Assembly (NCBI RefSeq): GCF_009939295.1
Contig: NZ_WVIC01000028.1
Location: forward strand, 1 to 63,624
Length of the DNA stretch: 63,624 nt
DNA from: Petrachloros mirabilis ULC683
GTDB taxonomy: Bacteria > Cyanobacteriota > Cyanobacteriia > Thermosynechococcales > Thermosynechococcaceae
Direction: 5' to 3'
Shown here: piece after piece, positions 7,767 through 15,803 of the stretch
Position numbering within the stretch: the first letter of the stretch is position 1
Layout: every line of letters begins with the position of its first letter
Position numbers and translations under genes: made by a program
The notes under the pieces: generated by a model
The model's database searches: none
What the model was told of the DNA's origin: nothing
What the model saw: only the letters and a program-made list of their open reading frames with translations

Positions 7767-7818
7767 AGGTCAAGGCATATTGTCCAGAGGTGCTTCATAG
7801 ACAAATTCTGCCCTATCA

Positions 7819-7959
7819 GAGGCCGTCTTTAAAGTCTTCACATGCTCTAGATTTTCACCCTAAGTCCCCCATTCTGGGGGGCTTAAGCGTGATCCAAGCT
7901 TCCCACAATGGGGGGTTAGAGGGCGGGTGCAAAGCGTTAGAAACTTTTCAAACCGCCTC
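7819..7959. repeat. MITE-like element, type A
   Basis: This 141-bp element begins GAGGCCGTCTTTAAAGTC and ends with CTTTTCAAACCGCCTC, imperfect terminal inverted repeats. The centre holds inverted C-run/G-run arms (CCCCCATTCTGGGGGG). It is flanked by TCA on the left and TTA on the right, compatible with a decayed TNA target duplication. Related copies lie at 29393, 55749 and 56867. Confidence 0.75.
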
Positions 7960-8755
7960 TTAGCCCCTGATCGCGAATGAAGATGCTGGATTATGTTGAC
8001 GTGAAGCATTTGGCAAGATCAGAAAAACCTCATAATCTGCATATTTTTTATCTCTAGACCATAAATTAATCCAACCTAAAAAGCAGAATCGGGTCGCTTG
8101 ATTTTCAAGCAATCACAAAATTTTCCAGGGCACTCCAACCATAATTGTAAAGTTTCAATAATTTAGACTTGCACATCTTTTTATGCTGGTTTATTTTCGT
8201 GATTAGCGCAACTTTTCCATAAGCCAAGACACATCACCAGCATCAAAATCATTTCAAAACTTGAAATCAAAGGAGGGCAAGTTACACATCTTCGATTGAA
8301 CTTTAATTGAAGATAGATTTTGATTCCTGATGTATCTTGCAGTCATCCGCCTCATTTTGATATGTCCGTAGAATTTTCTGCCTGACAAATCGTTCCAACA
8401 GGTAGAGTTTTCAGTATTACTTAACTTTCAGATATAGGGATTTCTGGCCAAGTGTGGTGTGCCAGATTCCTGCTCCCTATGGATTTGAGTCATCCATCTG
8501 TACTTCATCCAGATGGATGACACTATTACACAACTCAAAGATTAATCTCTTGAGTTAAGTCCATTGATATTGTGCTGGAAGCACTCATTAGTGGTGTGAA
8601 GATTTAATTCATATTGCAAGACCCCTATTTTGGCAGGCGGTATTGCCAAGCAACAAAAAATTCTCTTGTCGGGTACTAAACGCTTTAGGCGAAGTGTTTT
8701 ACAGTCGCCCCAAACAGTGCTTCAGACCTATTAAGCGCCACTTTTTTGATGTCAT
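7960..8755. other. AT-rich gene-free stretch
   Basis: No credible gene is seen in about 800 bp between a MITE copy and another repeat. The DNA is clearly more AT-rich than its surroundings and carries two strong hairpins near 8489-8556. It may be the long leader of the operon that begins at 8950 or a decayed insertion site. Confidence 0.5.
8489..8556. other. Two consecutive hairpins upstream of the peptide operon
   Basis: 8489-8500 (GTCATCCATCTG) pairs perfectly with 8510-8521 across a 9-base loop. Just after it, 8532-8556 forms an imperfect palindrome, AACTCAAAGATT with AATCTCTTGAGTT. Neither is followed by a clear T-tract. They could be RNA structure in a leader or protein-binding sites. 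Confidence 0.5.
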
Positions 8756-8865
8756 ATATGGCGGTTTACAGATCAATGAAGTACATGGGGTGCAGGGGGC
8801 AGTGACCTCTGAGTGGGGGTTCCACCTCCACACCCCTTACCTGACTCAGGTGAGAACCGCTATAT
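8756..8865. repeat. Type C palindromic repeat, copy 1
   Basis: A 110-bp element bounded by ATATGGCGGTTTAC and the complementary-type end AACCGCTATAT, containing GGGGTGCAGGGGGCAGTGAC and GTGGGGGTTCCACCTCCAC. Related copies are at 51566-51610 (partial) and 52159-52266. It ends 84 bp before the phosphoribosyltransferase start. Confidence 0.75.
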
Positions 8866-8949
8866 CAGAAAAGTTAGGCATCTTGTGAATCATGACAAGC
8901 TCCATGATTCAGGCTTCATCTCATCAATACAGAGTAAATTGAGACGCTT

Positions 8950-9522
8950 ATGAATACAGAGACGGTGCCAGATCTGGAAGTTCAAAAAGCCCTCAGCTTA
9001 GACCTTCAGTCTGCCTTTCTAGAACATGTCCATGAAATTGAGCATTTTCCCATCGAAAACATTCTATTCAAGGATATTGCGCCCGTTCTGGCACAGCCAG
9101 GGATGCTAAACCGGGCCGTCTCCACCATTAGTCCAGTGGTGACAGCATTGCAGCCAGATAAGATCTTGGCGGTAGATGCACGGGGTTTCATCCTCGGTGC
9201 TGCCTTGGCCGATCGCTCTGAAGCCGGGCTGGTCATGGTTCGCAAGCCAGGTAAGCTGCCAGGTTCTGTGCATCGCTTTGCTTACACATGCGAATACAGT
9301 AGTGGACACCTGGAGGTTACCTATGGCGTTGTTAAACCGGGAGATCGCTGTCTAATCGTCGATGACCTATTGGCAACAGGAGGGACTGCACGGGCAACGG
9401 CTGACTTCACCCTTGAGTGTGGTGCAGCGGTTCTGGGCTACTGCTTCATGGTGGAGATTGAAGCACTGGAGGGGCGAAAACGCCTGCACGATGGCCCCGT
9501 TCATACTATTTTTCGCTGTTAA
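8950..9522 (+). CDS. Adenine phosphoribosyltransferase-like protein
   Basis: A 190-residue type I phosphoribosyltransferase, first gene of the peptide operon. The APRT pattern FPIENILFKDIAPVL lies near residue 33, and the PRPP-binding loop is VDDLLATGGT at 137-146. These enzymes join PRPP to a base (adenine in APRT) with loss of pyrophosphate. The PRPP loop is canonical, so catalysis is likely, but the substrate may not be adenine because the gene lies in an operon with a second PRPP-related protein, a radical SAM enzyme and small peptides. It could also be a transferred salvage apt gene. The radical SAM gene starts 39 bp downstream. Confidence 0.85.
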   Translation: MNTETVPDLEVQKALSLDLQSAFLEHVHEIEHFPIENILFKDIAPVLAQPGMLNRAVSTISPVVTALQPDKILAVDARGFILGAALADRSEAGLVMVRKPGKLPGSVHRFAYTCEYSSGHLEVTYGVVKPGDRCLIVDDLLATGGTARATADFTLECGAAVLGYCFMVEIEALEGRKRLHDGPVHTIFRC

Positions 9523-9561
9523 TTGGCCTGGTCATTAAACCCTTTTGAAGGAGAACATTGC

Positions 9562-10803
9562 ATGGAAGCATTAACCTGGCTGAGAGCACCCGTAGACGAA
9601 GACGTCACTCGCTTACGTCTACAGACCATGATTGATCATGAGTTTAGTCAGAGAACCGACACCACAGATCTCAAGACTATTTACTTATTCCTAACTCGAA
9701 AGTGCAATCTTGGTTGCCAGCATTGCTACATTGAAGGAGTAGGCCCCAATGCCAAGGGAGTTGACTTTAACTTTGAAACGATCCATGGTCTGATTGAGCA
9801 GGCACGCCCCGATGGCTTGCGGAAAGTCAAGGTCTCAGGGGGTGAGCCCATGATCCATAAAGAGTTTCGCATGATTATGGAGTATCTGGGCTCCATTGGT
9901 TTGAAGGAGATTGTTCTGGAAACCAACGGCACACTTTTTAGGGATGACACAATCGAATGGCTAGAAAAAATTCCCAACCTAACTGTTTTTATTAGCCTTG
10001 ATCATTTTGATCCAAAGGCACATGACGACTTCCGAGGAAGGACAGGTGCTTTCACCAGAACTGTTGAGGTGCTTCAGGAGCTCGGCCAGACCAATATTGA
10101 CAGCGTTGTCACTACAACTGCCTATCGAAGCAACTACAATAAAATTCCGCAGATCATCGATTTGGTTCTCAGTTGGGGGATTAATCGACACCGTACACTC
10201 CTCAATATTCATCCCATTGGCAACGCTCGGGGATATCTCGACAATGCGATTACACTTGATGAATGTGAAGTATTAATTGACAACTTACTAGCGCTGGAAA
10301 GTTTCCGAAATGGACGGGCCTACATGACGCTTCCGCCAGCACTCATGCCGCTCAAGTATCTGAATGGCGTACACACCTGCGGTTGGGGGGACAATGTCTT
10401 AGGGATTCTCTCCAACGGTGATATTTCTATGTGCAGTGCTTCCTATGATGACGCTGAGATGATTGGCGGCAACGCCTTTGACCGCTCTCTTTTGGATATT
10501 TGGCACGACAGTCCTTTCTTTGAAGAGTTGCGTCAGATTGGCAAGGGAAGCGTAAAGGGGGTGTGTGGGAACTGCATCTTTTATAAAGTCTGTCGCGGTG
10601 TTTGCAAGATGAGTAGCTATGGACACTACGGTGAAAAAGATGCACCCTATCCACTCTGCCAGGAAATCTATAACAGTGGCCGCTTTCCACGCTATGCTCT
10701 GGTCGATCCAGACAAGGACTCGACCTACAAGCGCGGCGTCATTCGCGAGAACCGAGTTCATGAAGAGCCTATAGAAACTAAATTGGAGGCAGTGCATGGG
10801 TAA
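9562..10803 (+). CDS. Radical SAM/SPASM enzyme, probable peptide maturase
   Basis: A 413-residue protein. The radical SAM 4Fe-4S motif CNLGCQHC lies at residues 48-55, followed by the SAM-binding KVSGGEP stretch. The C-terminal SPASM domain shows Cys at 273, 291, 335, 338, 344, 348 and 366, enough for two auxiliary 4Fe-4S clusters. SPASM proteins commonly carry out C-C or C-S bond formation, epimerisation or similar changes on ribosomal peptides. The start ATG at 9562 follows GAAGGAGAA at good spacing. Two small peptide genes lie in the same operon, so these are the likely substrates. The precise reaction cannot be read from the sequence. Confidence 0.92.
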   Translation: MEALTWLRAPVDEDVTRLRLQTMIDHEFSQRTDTTDLKTIYLFLTRKCNLGCQHCYIEGVGPNAKGVDFNFETIHGLIEQARPDGLRKVKVSGGEPMIHKEFRMIMEYLGSIGLKEIVLETNGTLFRDDTIEWLEKIPNLTVFISLDHFDPKAHDDFRGRTGAFTRTVEVLQELGQTNIDSVVTTTAYRSNYNKIPQIIDLVLSWGINRHRTLLNIHPIGNARGYLDNAITLDECEVLIDNLLALESFRNGRAYMTLPPALMPLKYLNGVHTCGWGDNVLGILSNGDISMCSASYDDAEMIGGNAFDRSLLDIWHDSPFFEELRQIGKGSVKGVCGNCIFYKVCRGVCKMSSYGHYGEKDAPYPLCQEIYNSGRFPRYALVDPDKDSTYKRGVIRENRVHEEPIETKLEAVHG

Positions 10804-10809
10804 GATGAC

Positions 10810-11571
10810 ATGACGGACTGGAGCCCCTTAGTGCCTCGGCAAGAAGACTGGCAAGATTTGCAGAAGCACGATTTACGTTTTACTTCGGTTCTGACAGTGG
10901 TGCGGTCTCGCTACGAACAAGCTGATGATCCTGGCCATGATTGGCTGCATGTCATCCGGGTATTGAGAAGCTGTCTGTATATCGGTGCTTTGGTAGGTGC
11001 AGATCGAAAAATTCTGGCTCCATCTGCCCTTCTCCACGACTGGGTTAATGTTCCCAAGAACAGCCCAAAGCGCCTGGAAGCGAGCCGAGCCTCAGCGGCA
11101 GCTTCCGTTGAAATTCTCCGAGACGCTGGCTATGACGATCTCGAAGTGCAGTGCATCCAGAGCGTGATTATTGAGCATAGTTATTCTCTGGGATGCCCAC
11201 CCTCATCGATTGAGTCCGCAGTTCTGCAAGACGCTGATCGATTGGATGCGTTGGGAGCCATTGGGATTTTTCGGGCTGCAACCTGTGGATGCCGACTGGG
11301 TGCTTCTTACTACCATCTCCAGGATCCGTTCGCCACCCATCGGGTTACAGACGACAGCCGTTACACGGTTGACCACTTCTTCACGAAGTTGCTCGACCTT
11401 GGAAATCAGATGAATACTGCTCCTGCGCGGGCGATCGCACAGCACCGCCTAGCCTTCATCCATACTTTTCTATCTGAGTTGCAGCTTGAAATTGGTGAGA
11501 ACCCTGAAGAAATTACCCTGAAAAACATAGGAGAAAACGAAAATGCAAGACATCGTAGACTTTGTTTCTAA
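10810..11571 (+). CDS. HD-domain phosphohydrolase
   Basis: A 253-residue HD-superfamily protein resembling the YedJ-like group. Metal ligands are H47 (in HDWLH), the HD pair H76-D77 (SALLHD) and D141 (DADRLDALGAIG), giving an intact H...HD...D set. Members hydrolyse nucleotides or other phosphate esters. It begins 6 bp after the radical SAM gene, and its last 29 bases overlap the first peptide gene in another frame, so translation is likely coupled. Its role in the operon may be to process a phosphorylated or nucleotide-like moiety. Confidence 0.85.
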   Translation: MTDWSPLVPRQEDWQDLQKHDLRFTSVLTVVRSRYEQADDPGHDWLHVIRVLRSCLYIGALVGADRKILAPSALLHDWVNVPKNSPKRLEASRASAAASVEILRDAGYDDLEVQCIQSVIIEHSYSLGCPPSSIESAVLQDADRLDALGAIGIFRAATCGCRLGASYYHLQDPFATHRVTDDSRYTVDHFFTKLLDLGNQMNTAPARAIAQHRLAFIHTFLSELQLEIGENPEEITLKNIGENENARHRRLCF

Positions 11572-11782
11572 AACCATCCAGGACATGGGTGGTGGTGAGA
11601 TGGACAAGGTTAAGCTTGCCGATGCTTCAGCAACCCTGGTTTCTGAGGTGACGCAAGAAATTAGTGCGGAATCAGCCAGTGAAGCAGCTGTGGAGGCGGC
11701 TGCGGAAGCATCCAACGAGGCCATTGCAGAAGCTGCCGCCGAGACAGGATTTGGGGCACCCCGCTTTGGCGGGTTTCGCTGA
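11543..11782 (+). CDS. Candidate RiPP precursor peptide 1
   Basis: A 79-residue peptide preceded by a good ribosome site (AGGAGAAAACGAA), overlapping the HD gene's end. The N-terminus MQDIVDFVSKTIQ looks like a helical recognition leader; a long Ala/Glu/Ser-rich middle follows (about 35-67), then the abrupt C-terminus GFGAPRFGGFR. The paralogue downstream keeps the N-terminal block and the same C-terminal end, the pattern expected of a leader plus modified core. No hydrophobic secretion signal and no double-Gly site at a clear position are seen. Recognised only by context and not matched to a named family. Confidence 0.8.
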   Translation: MQDIVDFVSKTIQDMGGGEMDKVKLADASATLVSEVTQEISAESASEAAVEAAAEASNEAIAEAAAETGFGAPRFGGFR

Positions 11783-11826
11783 GAGGTGCATCTATCCTTA
11801 ATCAGATGGCTCCATCCCATCAACCC

Positions 11827-11853
11827 TTTCCAAGGGTTTTTAACCCTTGGAAA
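11827..11853. other. Perfect 12-bp hairpin between the two peptide genes
   Basis: TTTCCAAGGGTT (11827-11838) and AACCCTTGGAAA (11842-11853) form a perfect stem with a TTT loop. No T-run follows. It lies 44 bp after the first peptide stop and 30 bp before the second start, and may act as an mRNA-stability or partial termination element setting peptide-to-enzyme ratios. Confidence 0.7.
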
Positions 11854-11882
11854 TTACTCTGACAAAACCAGGAGAAAAAGCA

Positions 11883-12134
11883 ATGCAGGACATCGTAGAC
11901 TTCGTTTCTAGAACCATTCAGGAAACGGGCGGCGGCACTGTTGATAAGGGAAGGCTGACGGATGCTGCGGCAACCATTGTGTCGGAAATTTCCCAGGAAG
12001 TCAGCGCTGAATCCGCCAGTGAGGCGGCTATGGAGTCGGCGGCTGAGGCATCCAGTGAGATCGCGGCTGAGGCGGCTATGGAGTCGGCGGCTGAGGCAGG
12101 GTTTGGGGCACCCCGCTTCGGAACATTTCGCTGA
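11883..12134 (+). CDS. Candidate RiPP precursor peptide 2
   Basis: An 83-residue paralogue of the first peptide, starting at the ATG at 11883 after CCAGGAGAAAAA; a longer start at 11847 would overlap the hairpin. It shares MQDIVDFVS, the ESASEAA block and the end GFGAPRFG-x-FR (Thr in place of Gly at the variable position). The middle contains an exact 30-nt direct repeat encoding EAAMESAAEA at 12021-12050 and 12069-12098, which explains its greater length. Conservation at both ends with a variable middle suggests leader and core are under selection. Confidence 0.8.
   Translation: MQDIVDFVSRTIQETGGGTVDKGRLTDAAATIVSEISQEVSAESASEAAMESAAEASSEIAAEAAMESAAEAGFGAPRFGTFR
12021..12098 (+). repeat. 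Internal 30-nt direct repeat in peptide gene 2
   Basis: 12021-12050 and 12069-12098 are identical (30 nt, 48-nt period, 16 codons). They encode EAAMESAAEA twice. The first peptide gene has no such duplication, so it probably arose by slippage in this copy. Confidence 0.9.
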
Positions 12135-12154
12135 GTTTGGCCACGGGTATAGCT

Positions 12155-13639
12155 ATGTCCCATGAGAATGAGCAGCACATTACCTCTCCCGAAGCATTTT
12201 CGGGCGAGATTCTCGCTCGTTTGAGGGACATAGAGGTCATCGATCCCGATTCCCTGGCAAAGTTATTCGCCATGAGCTTCGGGGTCGATGCCTATTCCCG
12301 GACATTGTTTCTATCACTGCAAACGGCCTTGCTCTGGCGAACGGTTGAGCATGCTCGACGCCATACTCGCTATTACAAAGAGCGAGCTGCTTATGCCGCT
12401 TGGCAGGAGGGGCCAGCAACGAAGCGGATGCGTCTGGATAGCTGGCCCACCCTTGACCGTGCCACGATCACCCACCACTTCAGTGAGTTTATGGCGGATG
12501 ATGTTCACCTCCGCTCGGTCTGCCACACCTCAGGGACGACCGGTCAACCCCTGGAGATTTATAAATCCTTCGAGGAGGTCAATTTCCTCAGCCGATTTTT
12601 CACCCAGTTGTTTCAGCCAGCCTTTACCGTACCGAGCCGTCCCCTCACCTTGAGCTTTCCAACGCCGCACCATGGTGTGCCCGTGCCAATGCCTAGCCCT
12701 GGCATTAGCTTTGTGGGAGGGGTTACAGATGATACCCTCATCCGGGATGCCTTGCGCGTCCTGTCTACTGAGTATGAGGTTGCCAATCACGACCGACGCA
12801 TCTCCATCCTTAGCGGTATGGCCTTTCAGGTGCTCTTCTTCACTAGCTTTCTTCTAGAGCAGCAGATTGATCCCAAGGGCTTTCATCTCAGCTCAATTAA
12901 TATTGCGGGGGGCTTTGTCCCTTGGCATTGGCGACAGTTCCTTGGCAATGCCTGGGGCTGCGCGATCAATGACCGCTTTTCACTCACCGAGACGGTAGGG
13001 GGTGCCTCGTGCTGTCAGACCTGCCAGTGGTTCAAACCCGATCCACAGGTCTTTTTTGAAGTGGTTGAGGTTGATTCTGAGGCGACTATTGATGAAGGAA
13101 TTGGCCGTCTGGTGGTCACGAACTTGTATCCATTCGCCCAAATGATGCCCCTAATTCGATATGCCACTGGTGACCTGGTGCGTTGCCGCTCCTGTCACTG
13201 CATGCCTTCGCCAGTCTTTCAGTTTTTGGGGCGATCGCGGAATGCTGTCAGCTCAGGCAAGGGTCAGAATCGCCGGTGGTTCATCTTCTCAGCGGAATTG
13301 CATGAGATTCTGGCGCAAATTCCTGATCTGAATGTGTACGAATGGTTCTCCAATGTTCGTGAGGTGAAGGATCGAACCGTGGGGTCGCTGCCCATTGTCT
13401 CTCTGAAAAGCCTGGAAAATGCCAATGGCCAGCTTGAAATTCATCTGTCGGCGGAACTGAAATATGCGCCGCACTGTTACCCGGAACGGTTGCGTCAGCT
13501 TGAAGACCTCATTGTTGGACATCTCAGAACGGTGGAAGGCAGTGAATTTGCTACAGCTCAGGACAATGGGGAAATGACGTTCACGATTCACTTTTTGCCC
13601 CCTAGTGGACTTAAGGATCCCTATATCATCAAGATTTAG
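12155..13639 (+). CDS. PaaK/CapK-like adenylate-forming ligase
   Basis: A 494-residue member of the phenylacetate-CoA ligase-like adenylating superfamily. The phosphate-binding loop is SGTTGQP at about 126-132, the middle A-motif is FSLTETVGG, and the Y-ATGDLV motif precedes a Cys-rich zinc-type segment (C-R-S-C-H-C). These enzymes activate carboxylates as acyl-AMP. The start is placed at the ATG at 12155; TTG at 12137 is an alternative. It lies 20 bp after the second peptide. It may activate a carboxylate donor, or the peptide's C-terminus, for ligation, but the substrate is unknown. Confidence 0.8.
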   Translation: MSHENEQHITSPEAFSGEILARLRDIEVIDPDSLAKLFAMSFGVDAYSRTLFLSLQTALLWRTVEHARRHTRYYKERAAYAAWQEGPATKRMRLDSWPTLDRATITHHFSEFMADDVHLRSVCHTSGTTGQPLEIYKSFEEVNFLSRFFTQLFQPAFTVPSRPLTLSFPTPHHGVPVPMPSPGISFVGGVTDDTLIRDALRVLSTEYEVANHDRRISILSGMAFQVLFFTSFLLEQQIDPKGFHLSSINIAGGFVPWHWRQFLGNAWGCAINDRFSLTETVGGASCCQTCQWFKPDPQVFFEVVEVDSEATIDEGIGRLVVTNLYPFAQMMPLIRYATGDLVRCRSCHCMPSPVFQFLGRSRNAVSSGKGQNRRWFIFSAELHEILAQIPDLNVYEWFSNVREVKDRTVGSLPIVSLKSLENANGQLEIHLSAELKYAPHCYPERLRQLEDLIVGHLRTVEGSEFATAQDNGEMTFTIHFLPPSGLKDPYIIKI

Positions 13640-13666
13640 CTTGGCTCTGTGCCCTAGGAGGGGCCT

Positions 13667-14581
13667 GTGTGGGTGCTGACAACCTCATCTGCCGTCGAGA
13701 TAGCCAGTCGCGTTGCCACTCGATTGAACCTGTCTGCTGAGGTGCTGGTCACCCACTGTTTTCCCAACGGACAAATCGAGGTGGTTCCGCCAAGGCCGCG
13801 CTCCGGTATTGACGAGATCTGCCTGTTTCAGTGCTTCCCAGATCGGGTCAATGATCGACTGGTTGAGTTGTTGTTGGCGTTGCAGGCAATCAGCTTTTTA
13901 AGCCCTCGCCAGCTCACGATTGTGCTTCCTTACCTTCCGTACACTCGATCGGACAAGCCAGTGTCTGAAGGGGCATTCATTCCGTTTACGGCGATCGCAC
14001 ACTGTTTGCAGCAATTTGGCATTACGCGCCTGGTAACGGCAGAACTCCATGTCCCCCAACTTTCGGCAGCCTTTGGTTTCCCTGTGGTCGAGGTTGATAT
14101 GATGCCAATCTTTGCCCAACATCTGCACCCAGTTGATGGGGGAGCGACGGTTGTGGTCAGTCCTGATCTAGGGGGGGCAAAGCGAGCCGAGCGGCTGGCA
14201 ACTGCCTTGGGAGTGCCCATGGCGGTGATGCGTAAAACCCGGCACGGTAGCGTTAAGGAAAGTATTGAAATTCTCGGACAGGTCAAGCATAAGTGCGCCA
14301 TTCTTGTTGATGACGAAGTGAATTCGGGTGAATCTCTGATCTCCGCAGCCCAGCTTGCCCTCAGAGCCGGGGCAACGGCGGCGATCGCCGTCGTAGTTCA
14401 TCCCCTATTGACCCCGGAGGCCATTGGCCGGATTGAGCAATCGCCCTTACAGCACATTTTTATGAGTGATAGCATCCCTTTGATCTCGGCTTCTACGCAG
14501 ACGAGCAAGATGAAGGTTCTTTCCCTGGCCGAAGTGCTGGCGGAGGTGCTTCATCCCGTGGCCAAATTCGCTGCATCTTGA
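13667..14581 (+). CDS. Divergent PRPP-synthetase (ribose-phosphate pyrophosphokinase) homologue
   Basis: A 304-residue protein with the two-domain PRPP-synthetase fold. Visible motifs are PYLPYTRSDKPV (compare PYxxYARQD in true synthetases), PDLGGAKRAE, the K-x-R catalytic pair in MRKTRHG and the ribose-phosphate loop VDDEVNSGES at 214-223 (usual D-D-x-x-D/N-T-G-G-T). The replaced loop residues suggest altered activity. GTG at 13667 is chosen because TAGGAGGGG lies just upstream. Together with the APRT-like gene it implies phosphoribosyl chemistry in this operon. A housekeeping prs gene is not in the window, so a simple second synthetase remains possible. Confidence 0.8.
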   Translation: MWVLTTSSAVEIASRVATRLNLSAEVLVTHCFPNGQIEVVPPRPRSGIDEICLFQCFPDRVNDRLVELLLALQAISFLSPRQLTIVLPYLPYTRSDKPVSEGAFIPFTAIAHCLQQFGITRLVTAELHVPQLSAAFGFPVVEVDMMPIFAQHLHPVDGGATVVVSPDLGGAKRAERLATALGVPMAVMRKTRHGSVKESIEILGQVKHKCAILVDDEVNSGESLISAAQLALRAGATAAIAVVVHPLLTPEAIGRIEQSPLQHIFMSDSIPLISASTQTSKMKVLSLAEVLAEVLHPVAKFAAS

Positions 14582-15615
14582 GAGAAAGCGAGCAGGACGC
14601 GATTGAATTCCGGGCTGAGGGCACACCCCAAAGCTTCCTCGCCCTGGGTGCTGGGAAATACCAGGCGCTGAATACTGTCGAAGCGGGGAGCATGATGGGA
14701 GAGAATCGACACTGCGGCTCGAAAATTATCAGCGCTTTGGGCAATTGACCCCACAAGCTGAACTTCCCGGTAGTGCAGGTCGTTGGCGCTAAAGCGCACC
14801 TCATCGGCGTCTAAGAGTGACTGATAGAGGACAACTCGCCCGTTGCGAGCGGCGCTCCAAATGGCCCATTCAATTGCCACACTGCCGCCACGGGTACAAA
14901 AAACGGCCTGCGCTCCCCAACCCTGGGTCAGATCGCTGACAGTCTCCGTCAGGGTTGCGTTGAGTGGGCCAGCGTGGTCTGCGCCAGCAGCACAGGCTCG
15001 TTCCAGTCCGGTAACGTCATTGTCGAAGACAAGAACGCGCACTCCCCTCAAAGTCAGCAAAATCACGTGCAGAAGCCCCATTGTGCCACTGCCCATCACC
15101 ACGGCTGTTTCCCCTGGCTGGACTGCCCCACGCTCGACGCTGCGAAGGGCACAGGCTACTGGCTCCGCCAGCGCCCCAGTGAGCAGGTTGATGCTTTCAG
15201 GCATGGGAAAGACCTGATACCGGGGCACGATGATGCGATCGCTGAACCCCCGTGGCCCCTGGGGCAGATCCGTCCTCGGTTTGGGATTTAAGTAGGCGCA
15301 ATGGTTGTCCAGTCCTCGCCGACAGGCTTCGCAGAAGCCACATCGAGGCATCAGCGCGATCGCAACCGGGGTTCCGGGTGCCAGTGGCGATAGGGTGTCA
15401 CTCCTATCTTCTGCGACCCGACCACACAGTTCATGGCCGCCCCAGTAAGGATAGGTTTTTCGGGCACCCCGAAAAACCCGTTGTTCAGGGGTGCAAACCC
15501 CACAGAGATCAACATTGACCGTGACCCAGTCTGCCTGGCAGGGAATCTTGATGTCTTGCAATGTGGCTTTGTATGGAGCAGTGATTACTAAACCCGTGAC
15601 AGACGTATGATCCAT
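14551..15615 (-). CDS. Zinc-dependent alcohol dehydrogenase-family (MDR) protein
   Basis: A 354-residue medium-chain dehydrogenase. The catalytic-zinc Cys lies in DLCGVCTPEQ, with GGHELCG after it; the structural-zinc set is C-G-F-C-E-A-C-x7-C; the nucleotide-binding loop is GSGTMGLLHV. It acts on alcohol, polyol or aldehyde substrates with NAD(P). Its 3' end overlaps that of the PRPP-synthetase homologue by 31 bp in convergent orientation, so it may or may not belong to the peptide operon. ATG at 15615 is used; TTG at 15624 has a better-placed GGGGAGG. The substrate is unknown. Confidence 0.85.
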   Translation of the reverse strand: MDHTSVTGLVITAPYKATLQDIKIPCQADWVTVNVDLCGVCTPEQRVFRGARKTYPYWGGHELCGRVAEDRSDTLSPLAPGTPVAIALMPRCGFCEACRRGLDNHCAYLNPKPRTDLPQGPRGFSDRIIVPRYQVFPMPESINLLTGALAEPVACALRSVERGAVQPGETAVVMGSGTMGLLHVILLTLRGVRVLVFDNDVTGLERACAAGADHAGPLNATLTETVSDLTQGWGAQAVFCTRGGSVAIEWAIWSAARNGRVVLYQSLLDADEVRFSANDLHYREVQLVGSIAQSADNFRAAVSILSHHAPRFDSIQRLVFPSTQGEEALGCALSPEFNRVLLAFSQDAANLATG

Positions 15616-15803
15616 AAGGGCCAAGACTGAGCCTCCCCATATCAAACCCCAGAGATTCTGTTGTTACTCTACTACAAGCATTCGTTGAACCACACAGAGT
15701 GACGGTAGGAGACCCAAACTCTACTTTCTGCACCGTTAAGGTTCACCTGTCACAATGGAATCACAGGCTACCTCCATCCGGATTCACGGCAGGAGAATAC
15801 GTC

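Follow-up and report, generated by a model that had tools for sequence, protein, structure and literature searches.

A Petrachloros operon combining nucleotide-type enzymes with precursor peptides and a PaaK-like ligase: a candidate source of peptide-nucleoside conjugates

In the 63,624-nt stretch of Petrachloros mirabilis ULC683 DNA (the window), eight protein genes form an operon at 8950-15645 that, judged from its gene content, is a chimera of two modules occurring apart in other genomes. Module N comprises an APRT-like phosphoribosyltransferase, a SPASM radical SAM enzyme, a PRPP-synthetase-like (PRS-like) enzyme and an MDR dehydrogenase; module P is a precursor-type peptide followed by a PaaK-like ligase. 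With moderate confidence, we propose that the operon makes a peptide-nucleoside conjugate and represents a fusion of two exchangeable modules. This proposal draws on the partner genes of the peptide/ligase module, which belong to nucleoside pathways, on the occurrence of each module without the other, on the precedent of AgmC and AgmE for a PRS-like/APRT-like pair yielding an unusual adenine nucleotide, and on the presence of CoA-free synthetases among the relatives of the PaaK-like protein. It is also consistent with the existence of peptide-nucleotide RiPPs as a kind (PMC12250964).

Organization of the operon

A sequence-only reading of this DNA had listed APRT-like, radical SAM, HD, ligase and PRS-like genes, two peptide genes and a converging MDR gene, and every one of them is present:

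8950..9522, plus strand: APRT-like phosphoribosyltransferase (module N; NF002636)
9562..10803, plus strand: radical SAM/SPASM enzyme (module N; PF04055 and PF13186)
10810..11571, plus strand: HD-domain phosphohydrolase (PF01966), a candidate nucleotide phosphatase or pyrophosphatase
11543..11782, plus strand: pepA, precursor peptide A, 79 aa, with an Ala/Glu/Ser-rich leader and the tail GFGAPRFGGFR
11883..12134, plus strand: pepB, precursor peptide B, 83 aa, with the tail GFGAPRFGTFR
12155..13639, plus strand: PaaK/F390-synthetase-like adenylate-forming ligase (module P; remote PaaK/DVU_1553 similarity)
13667..14581, plus strand: PRPP-synthetase-like pyrophosphokinase (module N; TIGR01251)
14551..15645, minus strand, convergent: Zn-type MDR dehydrogenase (module N; PF08240 and PF00107)

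In gene order the spacings are 39, 6, -29, 100, 20, 27 and -31 bp; the same reading had described a tight operon with gaps of at most 39 bp, which holds at every junction except the 100 bp between pepA and pepB. No transporter or immunity gene adjoins the operon, no Rfam match falls in its region, and promoter and terminator scans of the region returned fewer sites than shuffled sequence. The GC content of the operon genes is about that of the flanks, so base composition gives no sign of recent transfer. Upstream of the operon (7767-8949) lies a 1.2 kb stretch of low GC (0.42 vs 0.52) without a recognised gene.

The two small frames had been read as paralogous peptides, and their paralogy (75% identity in alignment), a shared AGGAGA-type ribosome-binding sequence and purifying selection (dS ~1.57, dN 0.16, dN/dS ~0.1) establish them as true genes. 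The GAPRF motif assigned to their ends is present in both, the actual ends being the longer tails given above. The HD protein scores 148 bits against NF007515, below the cut-off of 286, and no homologue of it was found at the other loci tested by cross-search.

Two operon enzymes have housekeeping counterparts in the same genome. The APRT-like protein reaches 187.9 bits against NF002636 (cut-off 125 bits) and retains an intact PRPP loop (DDLLATGGTA), identifying it as a predicted adenine phosphoribosyltransferase; it shares 56-58% identity with its counterparts in Rhizobium and Myxacorys and 41% with the housekeeping APRT encoded elsewhere in the genome (C23). The PRS-like protein, above the TIGR01251 cut-off at 214.6 bits, is 44-45% identical to its module-N relatives in Rhizobium and Myxacorys and 31% identical to the housekeeping PRS; its catalytic KxR and conserved His are intact. 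In all three module-N copies, the ribose-5-P loop DDxxDTGGT of the PRS-like enzyme reads DDExN[ST]G[EQ][ST] and the base-binding stretch FRD of the APRT-like enzyme reads FKD; we infer that these changes may affect function. Since the genome encodes separate housekeeping APRT and PRS enzymes, those in the operon are additional and presumably specialised, and housekeeping purine salvage was rejected as an explanation of the operon.

Distribution of the two modules

The sequence-only reading had asked whether the enzymes recur together or are scattered and whether the small frames are conserved. Conservation holds for the four-enzyme core (module N) and, separately, for the peptide/ligase pair, whereas the full combination has so far been seen once, in this window; recurrence of the core in Rhizobium and Myxacorys indicates that the operon is more than a chance set. 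Module N occurs as a unit on symbiotic plasmids from Rhizobium strains that nodulate bean; genomes of other Rhizobium species carry it too, as does the cyanobacterium Myxacorys californica. A survey of 72,556 plasmid records gave the same 36 for the MDR dehydrogenase as for the radical SAM enzyme (>38% identity); the one other plasmid match to the radical SAM enzyme is 26% identical and annotated as a mycofactocin maturase. In samples of 390 and 386 cyanobacterial genomes, each enzyme is limited to the same two. A genome scan with the radical SAM protein as sole query gave no match, and one with a four-row alignment recovered 11 Rhizobium loci, Myxacorys and one unrelated archaeal protein. Neither the radical SAM nor the MDR alignment found a relative in viral contigs, and in phage records the radical SAM matches were all remote.

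In R. etli and Myxacorys, proteins of 164-187 aa and 109-111 aa together with an NTP_transf_5 nucleotidyltransferase take the place of the HD enzyme, peptides and ligase. A reduced module N is found on a Parabacteroides distasonis plasmid, where genes for the radical SAM enzyme, MDR dehydrogenase, an HPRT, a CMP-kinase-like protein and a NadR-like kinase form one tight operon.

Several features of these loci were noted in passing. On bean-nodule Rhizobium plasmids (L006, 8416-14315; L009; 35 Rhizobium records), module N with the nucleotidyltransferase and two small proteins adjoins repABC; in R. etli CFN42 the nucleotidyltransferase is interrupted by an IS66 element. A sigma-54-like site with one mismatch (L009, 10469-10484), not clearly above chance there, lies upstream of a phasin gene that precedes the APRT gene. 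The Myxacorys 187-aa small protein (L018, 11224-11784) contains an internal tandem duplication of GYYVQMVGxQPxHRGGPRAADTGLVG, which is single-copy in the Rhizobium relative, and the reduced Parabacteroides operon (L008, 9618-14625; two P-loop kinase genes) adjoins polysaccharide genes. R. leguminosarum plasmids (L046, 8563-11186) carry a distant NTP_transf_5 protein (38%) and a 109-aa-type partner without module N.

The radical SAM enzyme is the best-conserved enzyme of module N, which would fit a single small-molecule substrate in all these bacteria. Its identity is 69-71% with the orthologues of Myxacorys and Rhizobium and 40% with that of Parabacteroides; the corresponding values for the MDR dehydrogenase are 48-49% (Rhizobium and Myxacorys) and 37%. 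The CxxxCxxC motif (C48, C52, C55) is invariant across four lineages, as are the seven SPASM cysteines (C273, C291, C335, C338, C344, C348, C366), in agreement with the seven auxiliary-cluster cysteines originally counted. When compared with SPASM maturases, as had been suggested, the protein fell below the cut-off of every named NCBIfam class, the best being ScmF (171.8 of 400 bits); a SynChlorMet cassette was rejected on this score. An AlphaFold2 model from a six-row alignment (pLDDT 51) was too poor for a fold search.

Module P was found in R. leguminosarum, Aminobacter, Mesorhizobium and the Hyphomicrobiales genome G968. The PaaK-like ligase is 44-49% identical to the ligases that follow peptide genes in these bacteria, and the SGTTG, TE and RYxxGDLV motifs are invariant. 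Among 380 cyanobacterial genomes (threshold 1e-20) no further relative appeared, and 347 Hyphomicrobiales genomes yielded a single one. Weak family matches include BagE/FevW and F390 synthetase, which are PaaK-like synthetases that act without CoA. A single-sequence AlphaFold2 model of the ligase (pLDDT 34.5) was likewise too poor for a fold search.

The peptides of the window, R. leguminosarum, Aminobacter, Mesorhizobium and G968 are, by sequence, one family. The N-terminal 40 residues of pepA align with peptides of loci L044 and L045 and of G968 at z values of 4.3-6.2, and pairwise comparisons of N-termini between distant members gave z values of 4.3-6.3, with 0-1 of 1000 shuffles scoring as high. 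All members share an architecture of a common N-terminal segment, an Ala/Glu/Ser repeat block and a short tail, and four of the five tails contain Arg and an aromatic residue (GFGAPRFGGFR, GFGAPRFGTFR, VVGVRRPY, GIPGTFRFGR). An HMM built from three N-terminal sequences missed the window peptides, and the remainder of the peptide is of low complexity; kinship therefore rests on the pairwise tests, architecture and position. In all five module-P lineages a conserved putative leader and a short variable putative core lie beside a predicted modifying enzyme, as is general for RiPPs. The claim that no named RiPP class has this gene set also stands: none matched, and the operon is RiPP-like with real precursors.

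The genes that accompany module P belong to recognisable nucleotide-type pathways. On R. leguminosarum pRL23b2 (NZ_CP050089.1), an 88-aa peptide gene is followed by the PaaK-like ligase and then by an S8 peptidase, FolE, PurA and PurB, alongside QueE, an IMPDH-like protein, nitrile hydratase alpha, QueC, a HAD hydrolase, a phosphoribosyltransferase and QueD. In Aminobacter pANY103c, Mesorhizobium MesoLjLa4 and G968, an 83-94 aa peptide precedes the PaaK-like ligase and a beta-RFAP-synthase-like gene, and these clusters also include S8 peptidase, PurC-like, PurH and PRAI-like genes. From this content they resemble clusters for formycin-type C-nucleosides, whose enzyme ForT we take to be a member of the beta-RFAP synthase family. 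In the formycin-type pathway, ForT forms a C-C bond using PRPP (PMC9832568, PMC8183095), and the pRL23b2 set fits the toyocamycin/sangivamycin gene list (PMC12648386). As separate observations, a complete-looking 7-deazapurine pathway in an alphaproteobacterium (L049, 3941-15621) is partly co-operonic with peptide, PaaK-like ligase and S8 peptidase genes, and formycin-like clusters with BtpA and the peptide/ligase module lie on Lotus-associated rhizobial plasmids (L051, 15664-29461; L050) and in G968 (L052/L053).

In cross-searches, R. etli, Myxacorys and (with its reduced version) Parabacteroides had module N but no PaaK-like gene, and R. leguminosarum, Aminobacter and G968 had the PaaK-like gene but no module N. 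R. etli/phaseoli plasmids carry module N without the peptide and ligase, and Mesorhizobium shows the converse. Loci with module N alone yielded no Ala/Glu/Ser peptide. This double dissociation argues that the radical SAM enzyme is independent of the peptides and the peptides of the radical SAM enzyme, and it speaks against the original proposal that the radical SAM enzyme modifies the C-terminus of the peptide. SPASM enzymes do often mature peptides, and here the two kinds of gene share one operon, so a classical radical SAM RiPP to which the nucleotide enzymes add a further group was weighed; it appears unlikely, because genomes with small proteins that bear no relation to pepA/pepB encode the radical SAM enzyme at ~70% identity, the tight Parabacteroides operon with this enzyme shows no peptide gene, and relatives of pepA/pepB occur without such an enzyme.

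A proposed route to a peptide-nucleoside conjugate

That the peptide may receive a nucleotide-derived group, the other half of the original proposal, remains the best reading, since related peptides and ligase sit in 7-deazapurine and C-nucleoside operons. In the pathway we envisage, the radical SAM and MDR enzymes would modify a sugar phosphate or nucleotide, for instance oxidising, epimerising or deoxygenating it; the PRS-like enzyme would pyrophosphorylate the pentose phosphate, which may by then be altered; and the APRT-like enzyme would couple the pyrophosphorylated pentose to adenine or a related base. The best reading of the module N product is thus an adenine nucleotide whose sugar has been altered. 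The HD enzyme would then strip phosphate from the nucleotide, and the PaaK-like enzyme would activate a carboxylate, most likely the C-terminus of pepA/pepB, and ligate the nucleoside there. Finally, a protease encoded elsewhere would cut off the Ala/Glu/Ser-rich leader, leaving a short Arg/aromatic peptide bearing the nucleoside, perhaps a "Trojan horse" compound. A search of the genome for homologues of the R. leguminosarum S8 enzyme, run without a positive control, turned up no such protease.

The peptide might instead be a carrier, on whose C-terminus the nucleoside is built or modified before being released as a small molecule. A long Ala/Glu/Ser-rich peptide could serve as such a tether, the pepA and pepB tails are nearly identical, and S8 peptidases are encoded in the R. 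leguminosarum and Aminobacter sister clusters. We nevertheless think it improbable that the peptide is discarded in this way: the tails differ by pathway (GFGAPRFGGFR, VVGVRRPY, GIPGTFRFGR), as expected if the tail belongs to the product, and module N operates elsewhere without any such peptide. Still less probable is that the modules are unrelated neighbours, module N making a free nucleoside and the peptide/PaaK pair acting independently, for example in acyl-CoA formation or in modification of its own peptide. Their separability in evolution would allow this, as would the different partners (NTP_transf_5 and 164- and 109-aa proteins) carried in R. etli and Myxacorys. However, the peptide/ligase pair adjoins three different nucleotide-type pathways, and in R. 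leguminosarum the ligase, peptidase and FolE genes are consecutive, at most 30 bp apart or overlapping.

Relation to known nucleoside and peptide systems

The proposed conjugate would resemble microcin C-type RiPPs, in which a ribosomal peptide carries a C-terminal nucleotide or nucleoside. In microcin C biosynthesis a ThiF-like enzyme, MccB, acts on a short precursor, usually of 7 aa (PMC12250964, PMC6495379). Our operon differs in having a PaaK-like ligase, precursors of ~80 aa and dedicated nucleoside-building genes, and no member of the MccB-type ThiF family is among its eight proteins; by analogy, its logic is best read as microcin-C-like but built from unrelated enzymes. In angustmycin biosynthesis, PRS-like AgmC and APRT-like AgmE make an adenine nucleotide with an unusual sugar and a phosphatase finishes the product (PMC8599513). 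The operon shares this pair alone among the PRS/APRT pair, epimerase, phosphoribohydrolase and dehydratase that mark the angustmycin type: no homologue of the agm epimerase, AgmA or AgmF was recognised among its genes, and it has radical SAM, MDR and peptide genes instead. Rhizobiales clusters of both the toyocamycin/sangivamycin and formycin types contain the peptide/ligase relatives, whereas the window lacks deazapurine and C-nucleoside genes; a review in which neither "peptide" nor "RiPP" occurs describes the Streptomyces clusters with neither a peptide nor a ligase of the PaaK type (PMC12648386).

More tentatively, and at somewhat under even chances, these operons may define a class, the PaaK-type nucleoside peptides, whose PaaK-like ligase attaches interchangeable unusual nucleosides (a radical SAM-altered adenine nucleoside, sangivamycin-type or formycin-type) to the C-terminus of common Ala/Glu/Ser-rich precursors, and which has spread between cyanobacteria and rhizobial plasmids through module exchange. 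The open-access literature on RiPPs with APRT/PRS, deazapurine RiPPs, nucleopeptides with phenylacetate-CoA ligase and CoF synthetase describes no such class, which is weak evidence of novelty. Peptide-nucleotide RiPPs are already known, and those described depend on a ThiF-like enzyme (PMC12250964); PaaK-type ligation with dedicated nucleoside genes would be new, and possibly a new class. If so, dedicated nucleoside antibiotics would be attached modularly to ribosomal peptides by an ANL-type rather than a ThiF-like enzyme, the peptide/PaaK-like pair would provide a search handle for new Trojan-horse antibiotics, and the radical SAM/dehydrogenase pair would be a new one acting on nucleotides. 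Module N would also gain interest as a conserved set on the symbiotic plasmids of bean-nodulating Rhizobium. A further likeness is to pAgK84, which we take to be an adenine-nucleoside antibiotic plasmid (agrocin 84) and which carries radical SAM, SDR and nucleotidyltransferase genes; its radical SAM protein (L058, 38297-39331), encoded near SDR genes, is only remotely similar to the operon enzyme, at 25% identity over 171 aa.
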